Below are positions 45,802-52,239 of a DNA stretch of 64,000 nucleotides, in pieces; positions within the stretch are counted from its first letter, which is position 1, and every line of letters starts with the position of its first letter. The stretch is from Enterococcus sp. ZJ1622. Its GTDB lineage: Bacteria > Bacillota > Bacilli > Lactobacillales > Enterococcaceae. The notes beneath the pieces are model-generated. The model had not been told where the DNA came from and did not search any database. It saw nothing but the letters and a program-made list of their open reading frames with translations. The translations under genes and the position numbers were made by a program. The stretch is from NCBI RefSeq assembly GCF_011038845.1, contig NZ_JAAKDW010000003.1, positions 186,001 to 250,000 on the forward strand, written 5' to 3'.

Positions 45802-46347
45802 ATGGATAATGAAAAAGCACTCACACCGATTCTTTATAACCTCATCTTGAATCCGAACACAAGAGAGTGGGAACGAAAAGTACTCACTCGAGCAAAAGAG
45901 CGTTTGGCTGAAAACAGATCTGTCGCTGACGCCTTTGTAAAATTAGAAGCAGAGCTGCGGCCACTTGCGCTTCGAAATAATTTGACCCCAGATGTCATGG
46001 ATTTCTACTCGCTTCTTACTGGTGAGACAAGTGATGAAGCAACATATGATTTTTCGAAACATATACTGGAAGATCCTATTCATCAGGAAAAAGCCGTTTT
46101 TTCGGGAGGCTGTTTTTGGTGTATGGTGGAGCCGTTTGAAACGAAGCGGGGGATCGTATCTGTATTATCCGGTTATACAGGTGGCCTGATAGAAAACCCG
46201 AACTACGATCAAGTAAGCGGCGGATACACAGGACATGTGGAAGCTGTCGAGATCATTTTTGACACACGAGTGATCAGTTATGAGGAAATAGTAGCGATTT
46301 ATTGGCAGGTAACAGATCCAACCGATGCATTTGGTCTGTCATGTTAA
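45802..46347 (+). pseudogene. msrA: msrA truncated by prophage integration (methionine-S-sulfoxide reductase)
   Basis: 181 aa remain. An N-terminal helical extension (about residues 1-95) precedes the MsrA domain. The catalytic Cys is intact in [14 protein letters not shown], and [15 protein letters not shown] is present. After [12 protein letters not shown] the normal family sequence, with the downstream conserved Asp/Tyr block (D-x-G-x-x-YR-x-x-IF), is replaced by LSC and a stop. The prophage integrase gene starts within 80 nt. The protein lost part of its active site and is probably inactive while the prophage is integrated; precise excision would restore it. Confidence 0.9.
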
Positions 46348-46417: not shown

Positions 46418-47548
46418 TTATAAATCCATGTACCTTAAGAATTTCTCTGCACTTTCTTTTTCTGCTTCTTTAGTAACGTGGGTATAGATTTCTAGTGTTG
46501 TATTTATATTGGTATGACCTAGTCTTTCTTGAACCTGTTTGATACTTGCTCCAGCTTCGAATAATAGAGAAGCGTGAGTATGTCTAAATCCATGTGGAGT
46601 AATATTATATTGAGGATATTTTCTTAATGTTTCATTCAAAAATGCATTATGAATGAGTTTGTTGCTATTACTAGAAAATATCAATTGTTTTTCGTCAGAT
46701 TTGATTGGTATTCCACGAGAAAGCAAGAGCTTCTTTTGTTCTAACTTCCATTGTTTTAATAAAGAAATTGTGGACTTGTCTACAGAAATTATCCTTGTGG
46801 ACTTATTTGTTTTGGTAGACGTGATATAAGGATTTCCATTCAAATAATATCCTGTTTTATTGATAGATAAAGTTTGGTTAGTAAAATCTATATCACTCCA
46901 TGTAAGAGAGACTAGTTCTCCTTTTCGAAGTCCTGTGTAAGCTAGGACATGGAACATTGTGTAAATACTGAAATTCTCTTGCTGTTTTACTATTCCTAAA
47001 AAATCTTTTAATTGGTAACGATCTAAAAAGTTTTCTTTCTTTGCTTTTTGATGATTTCTTTTTCTAGGGACTAAAATATTATCCATTGGATTTGAAGAAA
47101 TAAGATTGAGTGACATTGCATAAGTAAAAACCTTTTTAGTGTAACTTCTGAGACGAGTAGGGGCATTTTCTTCATTCCACTCATTTACTATTTTTTGACA
47201 GATTGCTGTATTTATTTTATTAATTCTCATATGACCGAATTTAGGCAATATCTGATTATTGAATAGATATTGAACTCTTTGAACGCTCGATTCTTTTACG
47301 GTATTTTTATAGTTAGCAAACCATAATTCATAAACTTCTTTAAATGTGCTATAATCTTTTTTGGAAAAACTATTAGATTCTATTTCTATTTGAAGCTGAG
47401 CTAGTGCAAGCTTGGCTTCTTTTTGTGTTTTAAATCCTCGTCTAGTAGTGCGTTTCTTTTTCCCAGTTATTGGATCAACGCCTATATATGCCTGAAACAT
47501 ATAGGCTGTTGATCCATCTTTTTTTGTGTATTTTTTTATTGTAGTCAT
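46418..47548 (-). CDS. int: Phage tyrosine recombinase (integrase)
   Basis: 376 aa. An N-terminal AP2-like arm-binding domain (IKKYTKKDGSTAYMFQAYIGVDPITGKKKRTTRRGFKTQKEA), a SAM-like core-binding domain (about 65-165) and a catalytic domain with Arg in YTGLRKGEL (about 213), H319-x-x-R322 in PHGFRHTH, LGHTNINTT and nucleophile Tyr355 in EIYTHV. It catalyses integration into msrA and excision. Transcribed toward attL. The catalytic set is complete, so it should be active. Confidence 0.96.
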   Translation of the reverse strand: MTTIKKYTKKDGSTAYMFQAYIGVDPITGKKKRTTRRGFKTQKEAKLALAQLQIEIESNSFSKKDYSTFKEVYELWFANYKNTVKESSVQRVQYLFNNQILPKFGHMRINKINTAICQKIVNEWNEENAPTRLRSYTKKVFTYAMSLNLISSNPMDNILVPRKRNHQKAKKENFLDRYQLKDFLGIVKQQENFSIYTMFHVLAYTGLRKGELVSLTWSDIDFTNQTLSINKTGYYLNGNPYITSTKTNKSTRIISVDKSTISLLKQWKLEQKKLLLSRGIPIKSDEKQLIFSSNSNKLIHNAFLNETLRKYPQYNITPHGFRHTHASLLFEAGASIKQVQERLGHTNINTTLEIYTHVTKEAEKESAEKFLRYMDL

Positions 47549-47665: not shown

Positions 47666-47692
47666 TTGCTTTTTTTCACGTTACACTATAAT
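47666..47692 (+). promoter_or_regulatory. Promoter of the type III antitoxin RNA
   Basis: TTGCTT (47666-47671), a 15-nt spacer and a perfect TATAAT (47687-47692). The predicted start near 47699 falls just before the first antitoxin repeat at 47709. Confidence 0.65.
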
Positions 47693-47708
47693 ATAAACAT
47701 ATAGATAA

Positions 47709-47827
47709 GCGTTTAGTAATGTACGCCACAGAAACATTATTGAGACAATAGCATTTCACAATGTATGCCAAGAAACATTGTAGTTATAATTGCGTTTAGT
47801 AATGTACGCCACAGAAACATTACAGTT
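47709..47827 (+). ncRNA. Type III antitoxin RNA: three tandem ~42-nt repeats
   Basis: Repeats begin at 47709, 47751 and 47792 (42 and 41 nt apart; the third runs into the terminator). Repeats 1 and 3 share GCGTTTAGTAATGTACGCC then ACAGAAACATTA; repeat 2 reads GCATTTCACAATGTATGCC. Each can form a short stem: TAATGT/ACATTA in repeats 1 and 3, CAATGT/ACATTG in repeat 2. The U-A to C-G change on both sides of the stem is a compensatory pair, evidence for RNA structure. Promoter upstream and terminator downstream give the ToxI/CptI/TenpI layout; processed repeats would bind and neutralise the toxin. Confidence 0.82.
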
Positions 47828-47861
47828 AGTCTCTTTGGATTTTTTCAAAGAGACTTTTTTT
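47828..47861 (+). terminator. Terminator between antitoxin repeats and toxin gene
   Basis: AGTCTCTTTG-GATTTTTT-CAAAGAGACT followed by TTTTTT. In type III modules such a leaky terminator sets the ratio of RNA antitoxin to toxin mRNA. Confidence 0.9.
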
Positions 47862-47875
47862 ATTTAGGAGGTAAG

Positions 47876-48370
47876 ATGAAAGAACGAGGAATGTACTTTG
47901 GAAAAGATAGTATCTATCAAAAAATTAGAGAAGTTGGTGGTGTCTGGAACGACAACAAACAACGACCTATTGTTTGTTTGATAAAATCTACCGAACATGA
48001 TTCTTTGTATTGGGCCATACCTGTTGGCAATTGGAAACACAGAAATAATGAAGCACAACAGAGAATTATTAGTTATATGAATCGTCCTAAGCGTGATATT
48101 GCTTCTTGTTTTTACCATGTTGGGAATACAACTACAAAATCAATCTTCTTTATAAGTGATGTAATACCGATTACAGAGAACTATATAGAAAGAGAATATG
48201 TCCAATATAATGGGATTACTCAGTATGTTATAAAGAATAAAAAATTATTATCAGAACTTGAAAGAAAACTCTTTAGGATATTGGCTTTTGAAAATAGTAA
48301 GCCTAATTACTTTAGGCAACATATTACAGATTTAAAAAATAATCTTTTAAAAGAATTAACTCAGTGTTAA
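47876..48370 (+). CDS. Type III toxin-antitoxin system endoribonuclease toxin (ToxN/CptN/TenpN-like)
   Basis: 164 aa from ATG 47876, with a perfect AGGAGG 5 nt upstream; the frame runs further up through the repeats without an RBS. The core has RPIVCLIKSTEHDSLYWAIPVGNWKHR, DIASCFYHVGNTTTKSIFFISDVIPI and an ITQYVIKNKKLLSELERKLFRILAFE tail, a compact beta-barrel-type pattern I relate to the CptN/TenpN branch of the ToxN superfamily. The preceding tandem RNA repeats and terminator support this more than sequence alone. The toxin would cut mRNA and its own precursor; known relatives cause abortive infection. Exact family needs a profile search. Confidence 0.78.
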   Translation: MKERGMYFGKDSIYQKIREVGGVWNDNKQRPIVCLIKSTEHDSLYWAIPVGNWKHRNNEAQQRIISYMNRPKRDIASCFYHVGNTTTKSIFFISDVIPITENYIEREYVQYNGITQYVIKNKKLLSELERKLFRILAFENSKPNYFRQHITDLKNNLLKELTQC

Positions 48371-48390
48371 TTCTTTTTTGTTTCTAAGTG

Positions 48391-48705
48391 TTATTCCAAT
48401 TCTATCTCCAAAATACTGTTGTCAAATGATTCTAAAATCTCGTTTTTTTCTATAAAATCAATCCATTCTTGATATCCATTGTATTTTGGAATTCCTAAAT
48501 GTGATTTAAGTTTTTGATAGGTATTTGTCACGATCTTTTTCCATTCTTCTTCGCCAGTACGAATTATTTTATCATCATCCCACTTTTTTGTTTTTCCAGT
48601 TCGTTTACTATTTTTTGATATTTGATAGTCTTTCCATTTAGTCAAAAATATATGTTTTGAGTTAGAATTATTCTCTAACCATTCGCTGAATTCTTGATAC
48701 TGCAT
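48391..48705 (-). CDS. Hypothetical prophage protein, 104 aa
   Basis: Highly charged, Lys/Glu/Trp-rich protein (QYQEFSEWLENN at the start, EEWKKIVTNTYQKLKSHLGIPKYNGYQEWIDFIEKN later) with no signal or membrane segment. RBS AAAGGAG precedes ATG 48705. Convergent with the toxin gene, only 20 nt apart. Family not recognised; an accessory (moron) gene. Confidence 0.65.
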   Translation of the reverse strand: MQYQEFSEWLENNSNSKHIFLTKWKDYQISKNSKRTGKTKKWDDDKIIRTGEEEWKKIVTNTYQKLKSHLGIPKYNGYQEWIDFIEKNEILESFDNSILEIELE

Positions 48706-48822: not shown

Positions 48823-49452
48823 TTAGTGTTCTAATGGGACTTTAAATGATAAGGAACCTTCAAAATCCAACGAAAAATCATTAGAATAATCAATTTCAAT
48901 TTCATTCATATCTTTCAGATCACTATTCATTTCAAACCACATTGTTGATTGTGATGCCTTTCCACCGGAGCTGACTTCTGTTTGGCCATGCATATATCCT
49001 AAATCTTTACCAGCAATCCCATTAGTATCATAAGCTGAAAGGAATTGAGATTTAACAGACATGGCTTTAGGATAATTATAATTTTTATATTCATAGACAA
49101 CTTCAATTAAATTGTTGTGTTCTTCGTTAGTTAAGACAGAATCTGGACTAGTAGAAGTAGTTGTTGCTTTAAGTATTTTTAGACTATAAATATTGTTACC
49201 TTGATCGTCTTTTAAAATTGCTTCTTCATTCAGACCATATGTCTTTTTTTGAGATAAATCTGTCTCAGTTCTTGAGGAAGTTGTCGATTCTATTGTTTTT
49301 TTCGAATCATTGATTTGTGATTTTAATTCACTGTTTTCTTTACGTAAACTATCAATTGTTTTTTGTGCATTTGAATCAGTAGAACTCGCTGTATTTCCAC
49401 ATGCTCCTAATATTATGCTACTAAAAACTAATCCCAAAATTATTTTTTTCAA
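48823..49452 (-). CDS. Prophage-encoded lipoprotein with DUF5067/DUF4352-like domain
   Basis: 209 aa. Signal peptide with lipobox LGAC (Cys18), a short coiled coil (TIDSLRKENSELKSQINDSKKTIES, about 31-55), and an Ig-like beta domain (NLIEVVYEYKNYNYPKAMSVKSQFLSAYD ... SQSTMWFEM). Lipoproteins between int and cI in Gram-positive prophages can block DNA entry of related phages (superinfection exclusion, as in phage TP-J34 Ltp). That role is an inference from position. Confidence 0.8.
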   Translation of the reverse strand: MKKIILGLVFSSIILGACGNTASSTDSNAQKTIDSLRKENSELKSQINDSKKTIESTTSSRTETDLSQKKTYGLNEEAILKDDQGNNIYSLKILKATTTSTSPDSVLTNEEHNNLIEVVYEYKNYNYPKAMSVKSQFLSAYDTNGIAGKDLGYMHGQTEVSSGGKASQSTMWFEMNSDLKDMNEIEIDYSNDFSLDFEGSLSFKVPLEH

Positions 49453-49532
49453 TTTAAACTTTGACTCCTTAATAAGTAAGAACTACCACTAACTTTATTG
49501 AATAGTTCTTACTACAATAAATATTCTTAATA

Positions 49533-50300
49533 TTAACCTCTTTTACATAATGTATATCCTTGAGCTTCTGCATCTTGTTTTGATATCGGTGCGATCGAGT
49601 TTGCATTATTAAGCCCAGGACAATTAGGATTTAGATGATACTTCGTTCCGTGTTCAGGAGCTATATAAACTGTTTCCTGATTATTTTGTTGCTGAGCTTG
49701 AGCAGTGGCATGGTCTTGAGCTGCCTGTGCTTGTTTTTGCTGTTCCGCTTGAGCAGCAGCTTGTCTAGCTTGTTCCTGAGCAATTGCTTGTTGTCTTTGT
49801 TCTTCAGCTACTCTAGCAGCTTCAGCTTGGGCTGCTTCATTTGCTTTGATTGTAGAATCAACACTAGCTAATCGATCGGATAGTGATTGATTTCCATCAG
49901 GTATTGCTTGGATAGCAGAAAGGGCTGAATTATAGTTATCTCTAGTCGGGTTGGTTTCAGCTTGGGCAAGAATAGTTTCAGCAGCAGCAGTCTTTTGAGA
50001 TATTTCAGCTTTTTTTTGTTCTTCTGCTTTACGTTCCTCTTCTTGTTGTTTCTCAGCTTCTTCTTTAGCTTTTTGTTCCTCAAGTTTCTTTTTCGCCGCT
50101 TCTTGAGCTTGTTTTTTCTTTTCAGCTATTTCTTTAATTTTTTGTTCTTCTTTTGCTTTACTTTCAGAAGAAGTATCCAGCGTTTTTGAGCTGCTTATTG
50201 TTGTACTACTTTGAGAAGATGCGTGATGAGTGTTGCTGCATGCACCTAGACTAAGAGCTATTCCTAGAGACAGTATAGAAGTAAGTAATTTGTTTTTCAT
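49533..50300 (-). CDS. Prophage lipoprotein with long coiled coil and C-terminal Cys/His domain
   Basis: 255 aa. Lipobox LGAC (Cys21), then a Lys/Glu/Ala/Gln-rich coiled coil over about residues 45-205, and a C-terminal YIAPEHGTKYHLNPNCPGLNNANSI-type module ending GYTLCKRG. The H-x-x-x-x-C and terminal Cys pattern is a small domain common in lactic acid bacterial surface proteins, perhaps metal-binding. The coiled coil would lift it through the cell wall. Preceded by copy A of a duplicated 112-nt leader. Function unknown. Confidence 0.8.
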   Translation of the reverse strand: MKNKLLTSILSLGIALSLGACSNTHHASSQSSTTISSSKTLDTSSESKAKEEQKIKEIAEKKKQAQEAAKKKLEEQKAKEEAEKQQEEERKAEEQKKAEISQKTAAAETILAQAETNPTRDNYNSALSAIQAIPDGNQSLSDRLASVDSTIKANEAAQAEAARVAEEQRQQAIAQEQARQAAAQAEQQKQAQAAQDHATAQAQQQNNQETVYIAPEHGTKYHLNPNCPGLNNANSIAPISKQDAEAQGYTLCKRG

Positions 50301-50980: not shown

Positions 50981-51259
50981 CTAAAATAAGTCACTGTGTG
51001 TTCCAGTTTCAATTAACAGAAGAACAAGTTCATCTTCTAATATTTGATATATGAGTAGCCAATCTGGTTTAATATGCAATTCTTTAAAGCCAGAATAGTT
51101 ACCAACTAAATTGTGATTTTTATATTTTTGGGGTAGTTCTTGCCGAGTTTGTAATAACTCAACAACTTCTTGTAAGTCTTTTTCTTTATAGCCCATTTTT
51201 AACGCTTTTTTTAGTTGTTTTTTGAAACGATTTGTATAACGTAGCTTTAATTTATTCAT
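50981..51259 (-). CDS. Type II toxin, YafQ/RelE family mRNA interferase
   Basis: 92 aa. The pattern LRYTNRFKKQLKKALKMGYKEKDLQEVVELLQTRQELPQKYKNHNLVGNYSGFKELHIKPDWLLIYQILEDELVLLLIETGTHSDLF is YafQ-like: basic N-terminal helices, H/N-LVG, E-x-H-I-x-PDW-L-x-Y and a terminal GTHSDLF with the catalytic His. It would cleave mRNA in the ribosome. It overlaps the antitoxin gene by 8 nt. Confidence 0.9.
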   Translation of the reverse strand: MNKLKLRYTNRFKKQLKKALKMGYKEKDLQEVVELLQTRQELPQKYKNHNLVGNYSGFKELHIKPDWLLIYQILEDELVLLLIETGTHSDLF

Positions 51260-51455
51260 TGATTGATCTCATCATTTCTTCAAAAGAATCAAAATCATCA
51301 GAAGTTTTATTTTGGTTAACCTCATTAAGTGCTTGGTCTAAATCTATTTTAAATTCTTTTTGTAAAGTCAGAGTATAGATATATTCGATGACTAGATTAA
51401 GTTCTTCTGAATCTAAGTTGCTGATTAATTGTGTAATTTCTTCTGTTTTGTCCAT
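51252..51455 (-). CDS. Type II antitoxin partner of the YafQ-like toxin
   Basis: 67 aa from ATG 51455 (MDKTEEITQLI), with AGGTGG at 9 nt inside the CI end; it starts one nt after the CI stop. Acidic protein (LISNLDSEELNLVIEYIYTLTLQ ... DDFDSFEEMMRSINE) that lacks an obvious ribbon-helix-helix start. The acidic tail would wrap the toxin. Being without its own visible promoter, it depends on CI transcription. Confidence 0.8.
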   Translation of the reverse strand: MDKTEEITQLISNLDSEELNLVIEYIYTLTLQKEFKIDLDQALNEVNQNKTSDDFDSFEEMMRSINE

Positions 51456-51456
51456 T

Positions 51457-52239
51457 TTACATAACCACCTTTCCAACGATTCTGAATTCATCATTTTCAG
51501 TAACAATAATATCTTTATATTTTTTATTCAGTGATTCTAATCTAACATCACCGTTTTCGAACCAAATTCGTTTTAAAAATGCTTCGCCGTTTAAAATAGC
51601 AACACCAATTTTTCCACTAAATATATCTAACTGTTTTTTTACAAAAACATACTCACCGTTATGAAAAGTAGGCTCCATAGAATCACCATTTACGCTTAAA
51701 CAAAAATCTGCTTCAGTTGGTATTTGTTCAATAGGTAATTCTATTTCTTCACAAGTTTCATCTGTTAAAAACTCACCTGTTCCTGCTGATACGGGGCCAC
51801 ACCACTTTGTTGTTCCGTAAATTGTTTCTTCTTCTTTTTTCTTTCTAAACTGTTCTAAAGAAGTGAGAGGATTATTTTTTTGTTTAGTTTCACACTTTTG
51901 TTCTTTTAGTTGAGATTCTACAAAATCGTAAACTTTTTGTTGTCGAGGTGGGGTGAGTTGAGAAGAAGTTTCATTGATTAGAGATAGTAGAGAGCTTTTC
52001 TTTTTTTCTACCTCGAATCCCATTAACCACGGTTCGCTAACACCTAAAGTTTTGGCTAATAAAACTAATTTCTGTTGATCAGGGTTAGATTTACCACTAA
52101 CATATTGAGATAAAGCGCTTTTTCCCATTTTAACCCCTAATTTTTTTTGAAATGGCAAAGATTTATTTAGAATATCTATTTGTTTTAAATTTTGCTCTCT
52201 CATAATTTGTTTTAATCTTGTTGAAGTATTTTCTCTCAT
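51457..52239 (-). CDS. CI-like phage repressor with S24 (LexA-type) autoproteolytic domain
   Basis: 260 aa. N-terminal HTH (KQIDILNKSLPFQKKLGVKMGKSALSQYVSG region; STRLKQIMREQNLKQIDIL start) and a C-terminal S24 domain: cleavage site Ala-Gly in VSAGTGEF, catalytic Ser in SVNGDSMEPTFHNGEYVFV and Lys in NGEAFLKRIWF. It maintains lysogeny and should self-cleave with RecA after DNA damage. ATG 52239 is preferred; AGGTGGTG lies upstream. Drives the toxin-antitoxin pair in the same transcript. Confidence 0.95.
   Translation of the reverse strand: MRENTSTRLKQIMREQNLKQIDILNKSLPFQKKLGVKMGKSALSQYVSGKSNPDQQKLVLLAKTLGVSEPWLMGFEVEKKKSSLLSLINETSSQLTPPRQQKVYDFVESQLKEQKCETKQKNNPLTSLEQFRKKKEEETIYGTTKWCGPVSAGTGEFLTDETCEEIELPIEQIPTEADFCLSVNGDSMEPTFHNGEYVFVKKQLDIFSGKIGVAILNGEAFLKRIWFENGDVRLESLNKKYKDIIVTENDEFRIVGKVVM

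Follow-up and report, generated by a model that had tools for sequence, protein, structure and literature searches.

The prophage of Enterococcus sp. ZJ1622 analysed here carries a type III toxin–antitoxin module next to its integrase gene. The window, that is, the whole stretch of DNA under analysis, comprises 64,000 nucleotides (nt; contig NZ_JAAKDW010000003.1, positions 186,001 to 250,000, forward strand), and all positions below are counted from its first letter. We are highly confident that the locus is best explained by RNA units, an internal terminator and a MazF/CptN-fold toxin acting together as a type III pair. The layout, the homology, the predicted fold, the pseudoknot covariation and the linkage of RNA to toxin were all computed directly. 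The module is clearly kin to CptIN, yet it falls under the cut-off of that family and has another RNA and another active-site motif.

The definition of type III systems used here, given in section 17 of PMC5086642, names a toxin structurally homologous to ToxN, a Rho-independent terminator ahead of the toxin gene and tandem nucleotide repeats ahead of the terminator. The window locus has all three; the further hallmark, an antitoxin unit that is an H-type pseudoknot, is seen through covariation and not in a solved structure. A first-pass annotation, made from the letters alone, had already read the repeats–terminator–toxin layout as type III, and the match of the toxin to CptN in both sequence and fold bears this out. 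The features of the module are as follows.

47687–47692, plus strand: −10-like TATAAT, with a weak −35-like TTGCTT at 47666–47671 (from the sequence)
47705–47823, plus strand: antitoxin RNA array, Rfam RF02920 “Fusobacteriales-1” (77.3 bits, E 2.2e-10)
47709–47740, plus strand: predicted pseudoknot unit 1; first stem (S1) 47709–47712/47723–47726, first loop (L1) 47713–47715, second stem (S2) 47716–47722/47734–47740 (covariation)
47751–47781, plus strand: predicted pseudoknot unit 2; S1 47751–47754/47765–47768 (GCAT/ATGC), S2 47758–47764/47775–47781
47792–47823, plus strand: predicted pseudoknot unit 3; S1 47792–47795/47806–47809, S2 47799–47805/47817–47823
47828–47862, plus strand: Rho-independent terminator between antitoxin and toxin; 12-pair stem 47828–47855, then a T run (terminator scan)
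47866–47871, plus strand: ribosome-binding site AGGAGG (from the sequence)
47876–48370, plus strand: toxin gene, 164 residues, CptN-like fold, PHROG 33519; ATG at 47876, stop at 48370 (profile and fold matches)
48349–48377, no strand assigned: inverted repeat at the toxin stop codon with 12-nt perfect arms, a possible terminator

Organization of the locus

The three tandem repeats of about 42 nt annotated at 47709, 47751 and 47792 are all present. Units 1 and 3 are identical over 31/31 nt (47709–47739 and 47792–47822), and a 41-nt register joins two repeat copies at 73%. A covariance model of the repeats had been suggested as a check, and Rfam supplies one: RF02920 matches 47705–47823 with 77.3 bits, above its gathering score of 52.1 bits. 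The folding energy of 47705–47860 (z = −3.7) is equalled by 1 of 200 shuffles; the folding program permits no pseudoknot, and its best fold consists of three hairpins and one pairing between units.

The annotated Rho-independent terminator is likewise present, with its 12-pair stem and T run. Over both strands of the region, two terminator-like sites were found against 0.2 expected, and the inverted repeat at the toxin stop codon was not reported by that scan. The promoter held up in part: TATAAT is a perfect −10, while the −35 matches at 3/6 positions with a 15-nt spacer and a consensus promoter scan reported no promoter on the module strand. The 164-residue open reading frame (ORF) with its perfect ribosome-binding site stands as first described. 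In a mechanical ORF list the frame begins further upstream, at an ATG within the repeats (47765; 201 residues); the alignment with homologues begins at the position equivalent to 47876.

Pseudoknot structure of the antitoxin units

In addition to the hairpin, every window unit has a second, pseudoknot-forming stem, S1, which the first-pass annotation lacked (GCGT/ACGC, GCAT/ATGC and GCGT/ACGC in units 1, 2 and 3). In each unit, bases ahead of the hairpin pair with bases just past the hairpin’s 5′ strand. The compensatory change noted earlier in the stem of unit 2 is real, being a TA-to-CG change in the hairpin stem; in fact, both stems of unit 2 carry compensatory changes relative to units 1 and 3. 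Covariation indicates that the unit is an H-type pseudoknot with an S1 of 3–5 base pairs (bp), an L1 of 3 nt, an S2 of 7 bp and an A-rich second loop (L2).

Across 133 unique units from 58 loci, collected without use of S1 (14 look false by eye and were retained), the three pairs of S1 form in 125, 124 and 127 units, against maxima of 106, 101 and 110 in 2000 permutations. L1 offsets from 0 to 7 were tried, and only an offset of 3 yields three consecutive pairs in >90% of units. When 66 units (64 distinct), drawn from 22 of the 45 three-unit loci, were aligned with MAFFT, pairing was seen in 192/192 cells of the three core pairs, with 54 two-sided changes; the corresponding controls gave 76% of cells when shuffled and 5–81% when slid by 1 to 3 columns. 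A fourth, outer pair is present in just 18/64 distinct units, those of the window included. A three-base pseudoknot search by itself was tried and found not to be specific, yielding many two-unit chance arrays.

Like the window RNA, which lies above its gathering threshold, RF02920 has three hairpins; unlike in our units, its structure line holds hairpins alone and not S1, and Rfam types the family as Cis-reg. The addition of S1 corrects this structure, and the antitoxin reading would give a function to a family so far typed merely cis-regulatory.

Toxin homology and fold

The toxin was matched by NCBIfam, PHROGs and PDB searches. Structure prediction, another check suggested at the outset, gave a CptN-like fold that aligns to Eubacterium rectale CptN (PDB 4RMO) over 148 residues. 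All 31/31 members of its clade match the NCBIfam CptIN profile NF047359 (best E 9.2e-18, read as about 65 bits). Unlike CptN, ToxIN/AbiQ, whose repeats measure 34–36 nt (PMC12373285), had no sequence match to the window toxin in the PDB search.

Linkage of RNA and toxin across genomes and phages

Pairs of RF02920 and toxin occur across many gut bacteria and phages. The toxin-side set holds 58 loci: 49 from genomes, 8 viral, 1 phage record and the window, minus L012, which shares its toxin and upstream DNA with L011. RF02920-type units number three in 45 loci, two in 3, one in 8 and none in 2. Absence of the repeats before homologous ORFs had been named as grounds for giving up the reading, and at least one unit is found in 56/58 loci. 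The two loci without a unit (L152, L156) have toxins without an N-terminus, and some arrays are short because the contig stops there (L121, L141). A terminator-like site stands at the equivalent place in 54/56 loci with a unit, being absent in L127 and L147.

RF02920 scores exceed the gathering threshold in 12/14 relatives scanned. Whole-genome scans of 28 toxin genomes gave a single match in 24 (23 over the cut-off), each at the toxin locus; the 4 genomes without a match are those of L121, L152, L156 and L161. Scanned over whole records, the phage record has one match and two strict-CptIN plasmids none. From the RNA side, under stricter filters that lose weak matches, RF02920 was found in 1/105 genomes of the window’s family, in 2/391 of the class of Acetivibrio ethanolgignens (G110), and in 7/397 and 3/400 in two families. 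These searches gave 12 distinct sites, 6 already known via the toxin, with an intact toxin at 8. Arrays of at least three units among 206 collected loci were confined to toxin loci (the counts include a few spurious extra units). Three-unit RNAs also stand ahead of truncated or frameshifted toxins at L162, L163, L166, L167 and L168.

Neighbouring genes are diverse: 20 proteins from 13/58 loci were scanned, and the 13 with a Pfam match (among them argG, serS, folP, a phage antirepressor and a topoisomerase) include no family twice. With the RNA of L129 as query, blastn found none in plasmids and two Clostridioides records in phages, one over only 30% of the query. Viral contigs were also scanned with a loose DNA pattern; the 106 stretches that it matched were mostly chance, and the scan was set aside. 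We note that the Rfam “skipping-rope” RNA (RF02924) begins directly after the toxin gene of L129 (L129:6493-6570) and that the genome of A. ethanolgignens has four CptIN matches, one of them of the RF02920 clade.

Several observations weigh against assigning the locus to a type III pair. PADLOC and Pfam searches of the window toxin gave no toxin family, and the profile search suggested as a check did match NF047359, at 60 bits, below the equivalog cut-off of 90 bits. The CptN Ser-Ser pair is absent in 31/31 aligned clade members (Gly51, followed by N, K, D or A at position 52), so RNase activity cannot be assumed. Full-length toxins with only one recognised unit occur at L130, L135 and L146; the RNA, too, can therefore degenerate. 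Among the 12 RNA-side sites, L237 and L239 have no toxin and L234 and L236 a broken one. For S1 taken alone, two simpler counts are unremarkable: how many pairs show a two-sided change at all (3, reached by 238/500 shuffles) and how many further pair types occur (8, reached by 23/500).

Proposed mechanism and biological role

In the mechanism that we propose, and that the anatomy of the locus supports well, a single transcript would carry three tandem RNA units; the internal terminator would stop most transcripts, leaving antitoxin alone, with readthrough giving toxin mRNA. The 164-residue MazF/CptN-fold protein, probably an endoribonuclease, would cut the A-rich linkers between units, and each freed H-type pseudoknot would cap the toxin active site within a closed RNA–protein ring. 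Were the module lost, or its transcription upset by a second phage, the labile RNA would run out; the toxin thus released would retain the prophage in the cell and may abort infection. The RNase activity and toxicity of the protein, the processing of the RNA, the ring and the biological role are the parts of this model that we infer.

On whether the module serves prophage addiction and not defence, we hold the balance to be even. Its position beside the integrase fits addiction, as does the reported behaviour of E. rectale CptIN, which gave 100% plasmid retention and, in the assays described in PMC4627078, had no effect on >200 coliphages. ToxIN systems, in contrast, are described as aborting phage infection (PMC5377504, PMC5772629), and relatives of the window module lie in phage contigs (L004, L001) and, in one case, in a type I restriction-modification locus. 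In the latter (L158:4354-7863, Selenomonas ruminantium ATCC 12561) the RNA–toxin module sits between hsdM and hsdS, a position that may point to a role in guarding the restriction system.

Relationship to CptIN and other systems

The window module shares with E. rectale CptIN (4RMO) the toxin fold, sequence homology, the repeats–terminator–toxin operon and an antitoxin that is an H-type pseudoknot whose second loop is A-rich. It differs in that the toxin is 22% identical in the structural alignment and the clade RNA has its 3–5-bp S1, 3-nt L1, 7-bp S2 and usually three units of about 42 nt, against the 1-nt L1, 9-nt L2 and two 45-nt repeats described for CptI (PMC4627078). It is possible, if somewhat doubtful, that we are dealing with ordinary CptIN and nothing distinctive. 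Table 3 of PMC6315513 already counts Fusobacterium loci as cptIN, with toxins of 156–159 residues and 40–41-nt repeats in 2.9–3.1 copies, like ours in size and number; in our view these are probably RF02920 loci. RF02920 is, moreover, named after Fusobacteriales. The motif is said to have been defined by Weinberg in 2017.

Against ordinary CptIN stand the profile scores, three strict CptN proteins reaching 110–202 bits on NF047359 against 60 for the window, and the tree, in which the RF02920 toxin clade is separate from CptN with support of 100/99; the active-site motif differs as well. Three strict CptIN loci that were scanned have no RF02920 match and different repeats. The divergent branch guessed at in the first reading thus takes form as a clade beside CptIN, below the NCBIfam cut-off. 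Proteins between CptN and the RF02920 clade (L216, L217, L220) have two-unit arrays that are CptI-like by eye and may be intermediates in a change of RNA type. A Fusobacterium polymorphum plasmid (L005:4995-7185) has a strict CptIN locus and, after it, a gene annotated as ToxN/AbiQ; both have repeats of their own.

AbiF-RCd22 of Clostridioides difficile offers a parallel: a phage-borne toxin gene is preceded by repeats of an Rfam motif (RF03085) that is reported to be an antitoxin (PMC12373285). Unlike ours, its toxin is an unrelated HEPN protein, its Rfam family is another, and processing between the motifs was not observed. Other structured RNAs ahead of ToxN were put forward as antitoxins in a 2021 survey, from which known Rfam families were excluded (PMC8040213). 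A full-text search for “Fusobacteriales-1” and “RF02920” found no paper in the literature collection searched; the RNA–toxin link may already be in print.

Active site

The active site of ToxN consists of Lys33, Thr52, Ser53 and Lys55 (PMC8860590) and that of CptN of a [Ser]-[Ser/Thr]-[Arg] triad (PMC4627078). In our reading, Ser-[Ser/Thr] corresponds to Ser51-Ser52 of 4RMO, which the profile aligns to Gly51-(N/K/D/A)52 of the clade, where none of the 31 members keeps the pair. Unlike in CptIN, His55 and Arg56, directly after the lost pair, are invariant (31/31) and may take over from it. Invariant His81 was considered as a new catalytic residue and dropped, 4RMO having His at the aligned position. 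That the protein keeps the fold without being an RNase, for instance as a poison that hits some other target, in the manner of CcdB, while the RNA still binds it, seems improbable to us: Arg30 is invariant, His-Arg is conserved, and tandem RNA repeats presumably need an RNase for cutting. The clade extends the CptN fold to proteins with a replaced active-site motif and so offers a natural test of how RNases of this kind work.

We regard it as most improbable that RF02920 acts simply in cis, as an attenuator or riboswitch-like leader by which the gene after it is controlled in transcription or translation. In favour of this reading, Rfam types it so, it lies upstream of a gene, usually with a terminator between, and attenuation of toxin synthesis may well form part of its function. 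Against it, the RNA is made up of tandem pseudoknots joined by A-rich linkers, the protein encoded downstream shares its fold with a toxin that RNAs of this kind neutralise, and intact RNA persists ahead of some broken toxins.

Positional pattern of the units

The antitoxin is a tandem one in which neighbouring units mostly differ in the first stem and the outer two agree. Across 41 distinct three-unit arrays, S1 is the same in units 1 and 3 and other in unit 2 in 25; it differs in all units in 8, agrees in units 1 and 2 in 5, is the same throughout in 3, and never agrees in units 2 and 3 only. By distinct signature, the counts are 12 (1 = 3), 6 (all different), 2 (1 = 2) and 2 (all same). Since the loci are related, these counts should not be read as a probability. 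Within a locus, the cores of units 1 and 3 have a mean identity of 0.88, and those of neighbours 0.73 and 0.77. Between loci, identity at the same position (unit 1, 0.74; unit 2, 0.79; unit 3, 0.84) barely exceeds that across positions (0.74–0.78), which does not establish strict positional inheritance. Because neighbouring units are near-identical in several strict CptI arrays, slippage by itself is not enough to account for the A-B-A pattern.

We propose that differing S1 stems in neighbours serve to avoid cross-pairing. A bolder reading, which we consider unlikely, would make the module a fourth type III family, with an RF02920 antitoxin, a rewired His-Arg site, an A-B-A address code in S1 and the usual three units feeding a ring of three toxins and three RNAs; the address code would then keep adjacent knots in the precursor from cross-pairing.

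Prophage setting and neighbouring genes

The annotated position of the module, prophage-borne and next to the integrase, agrees with our analysis.

45802–46347, plus strand: 5′ part of msrA, interrupted by the prophage; frame stops at 181 residues (comparison with genus relatives)
46418–47548, minus strand: tyrosine integrase of the prophage, adjoining the module (Pfam Phage_integrase 3.7e-29, plus SAM-like and arm-binding domains)

In 11/14 genus relatives, the msrA match breaks off at residue 178 of 181 within a longer open frame (270–305 residues), which makes insertion of the prophage inside msrA most likely; the remaining three (G002, G003, G009) gave partial or weaker matches. Placement at an attL edge is consistent with the split msrA, whereas its attR partner was not seen: the contig ends 10.4 kb past the window before attR or the msrA remainder, and other contigs were not searched for the msrA tail.

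The same prophage holds a second likely toxin–antitoxin pair (50984–51506), with a YafQ/RelE-family toxin and, upstream, a small ORF without a clear family match. Convergent with the toxin gene of the type III module is a small ORF (48391–48705) of PHROG 7823, of unknown function, found in 10/50,697 phage records at <60% identity. Two ORFs at 48823–50300 have only weak matches and look lipoprotein-like by eye, with a Cys after the signal peptide; they are possible lysogenic conversion or superinfection genes.
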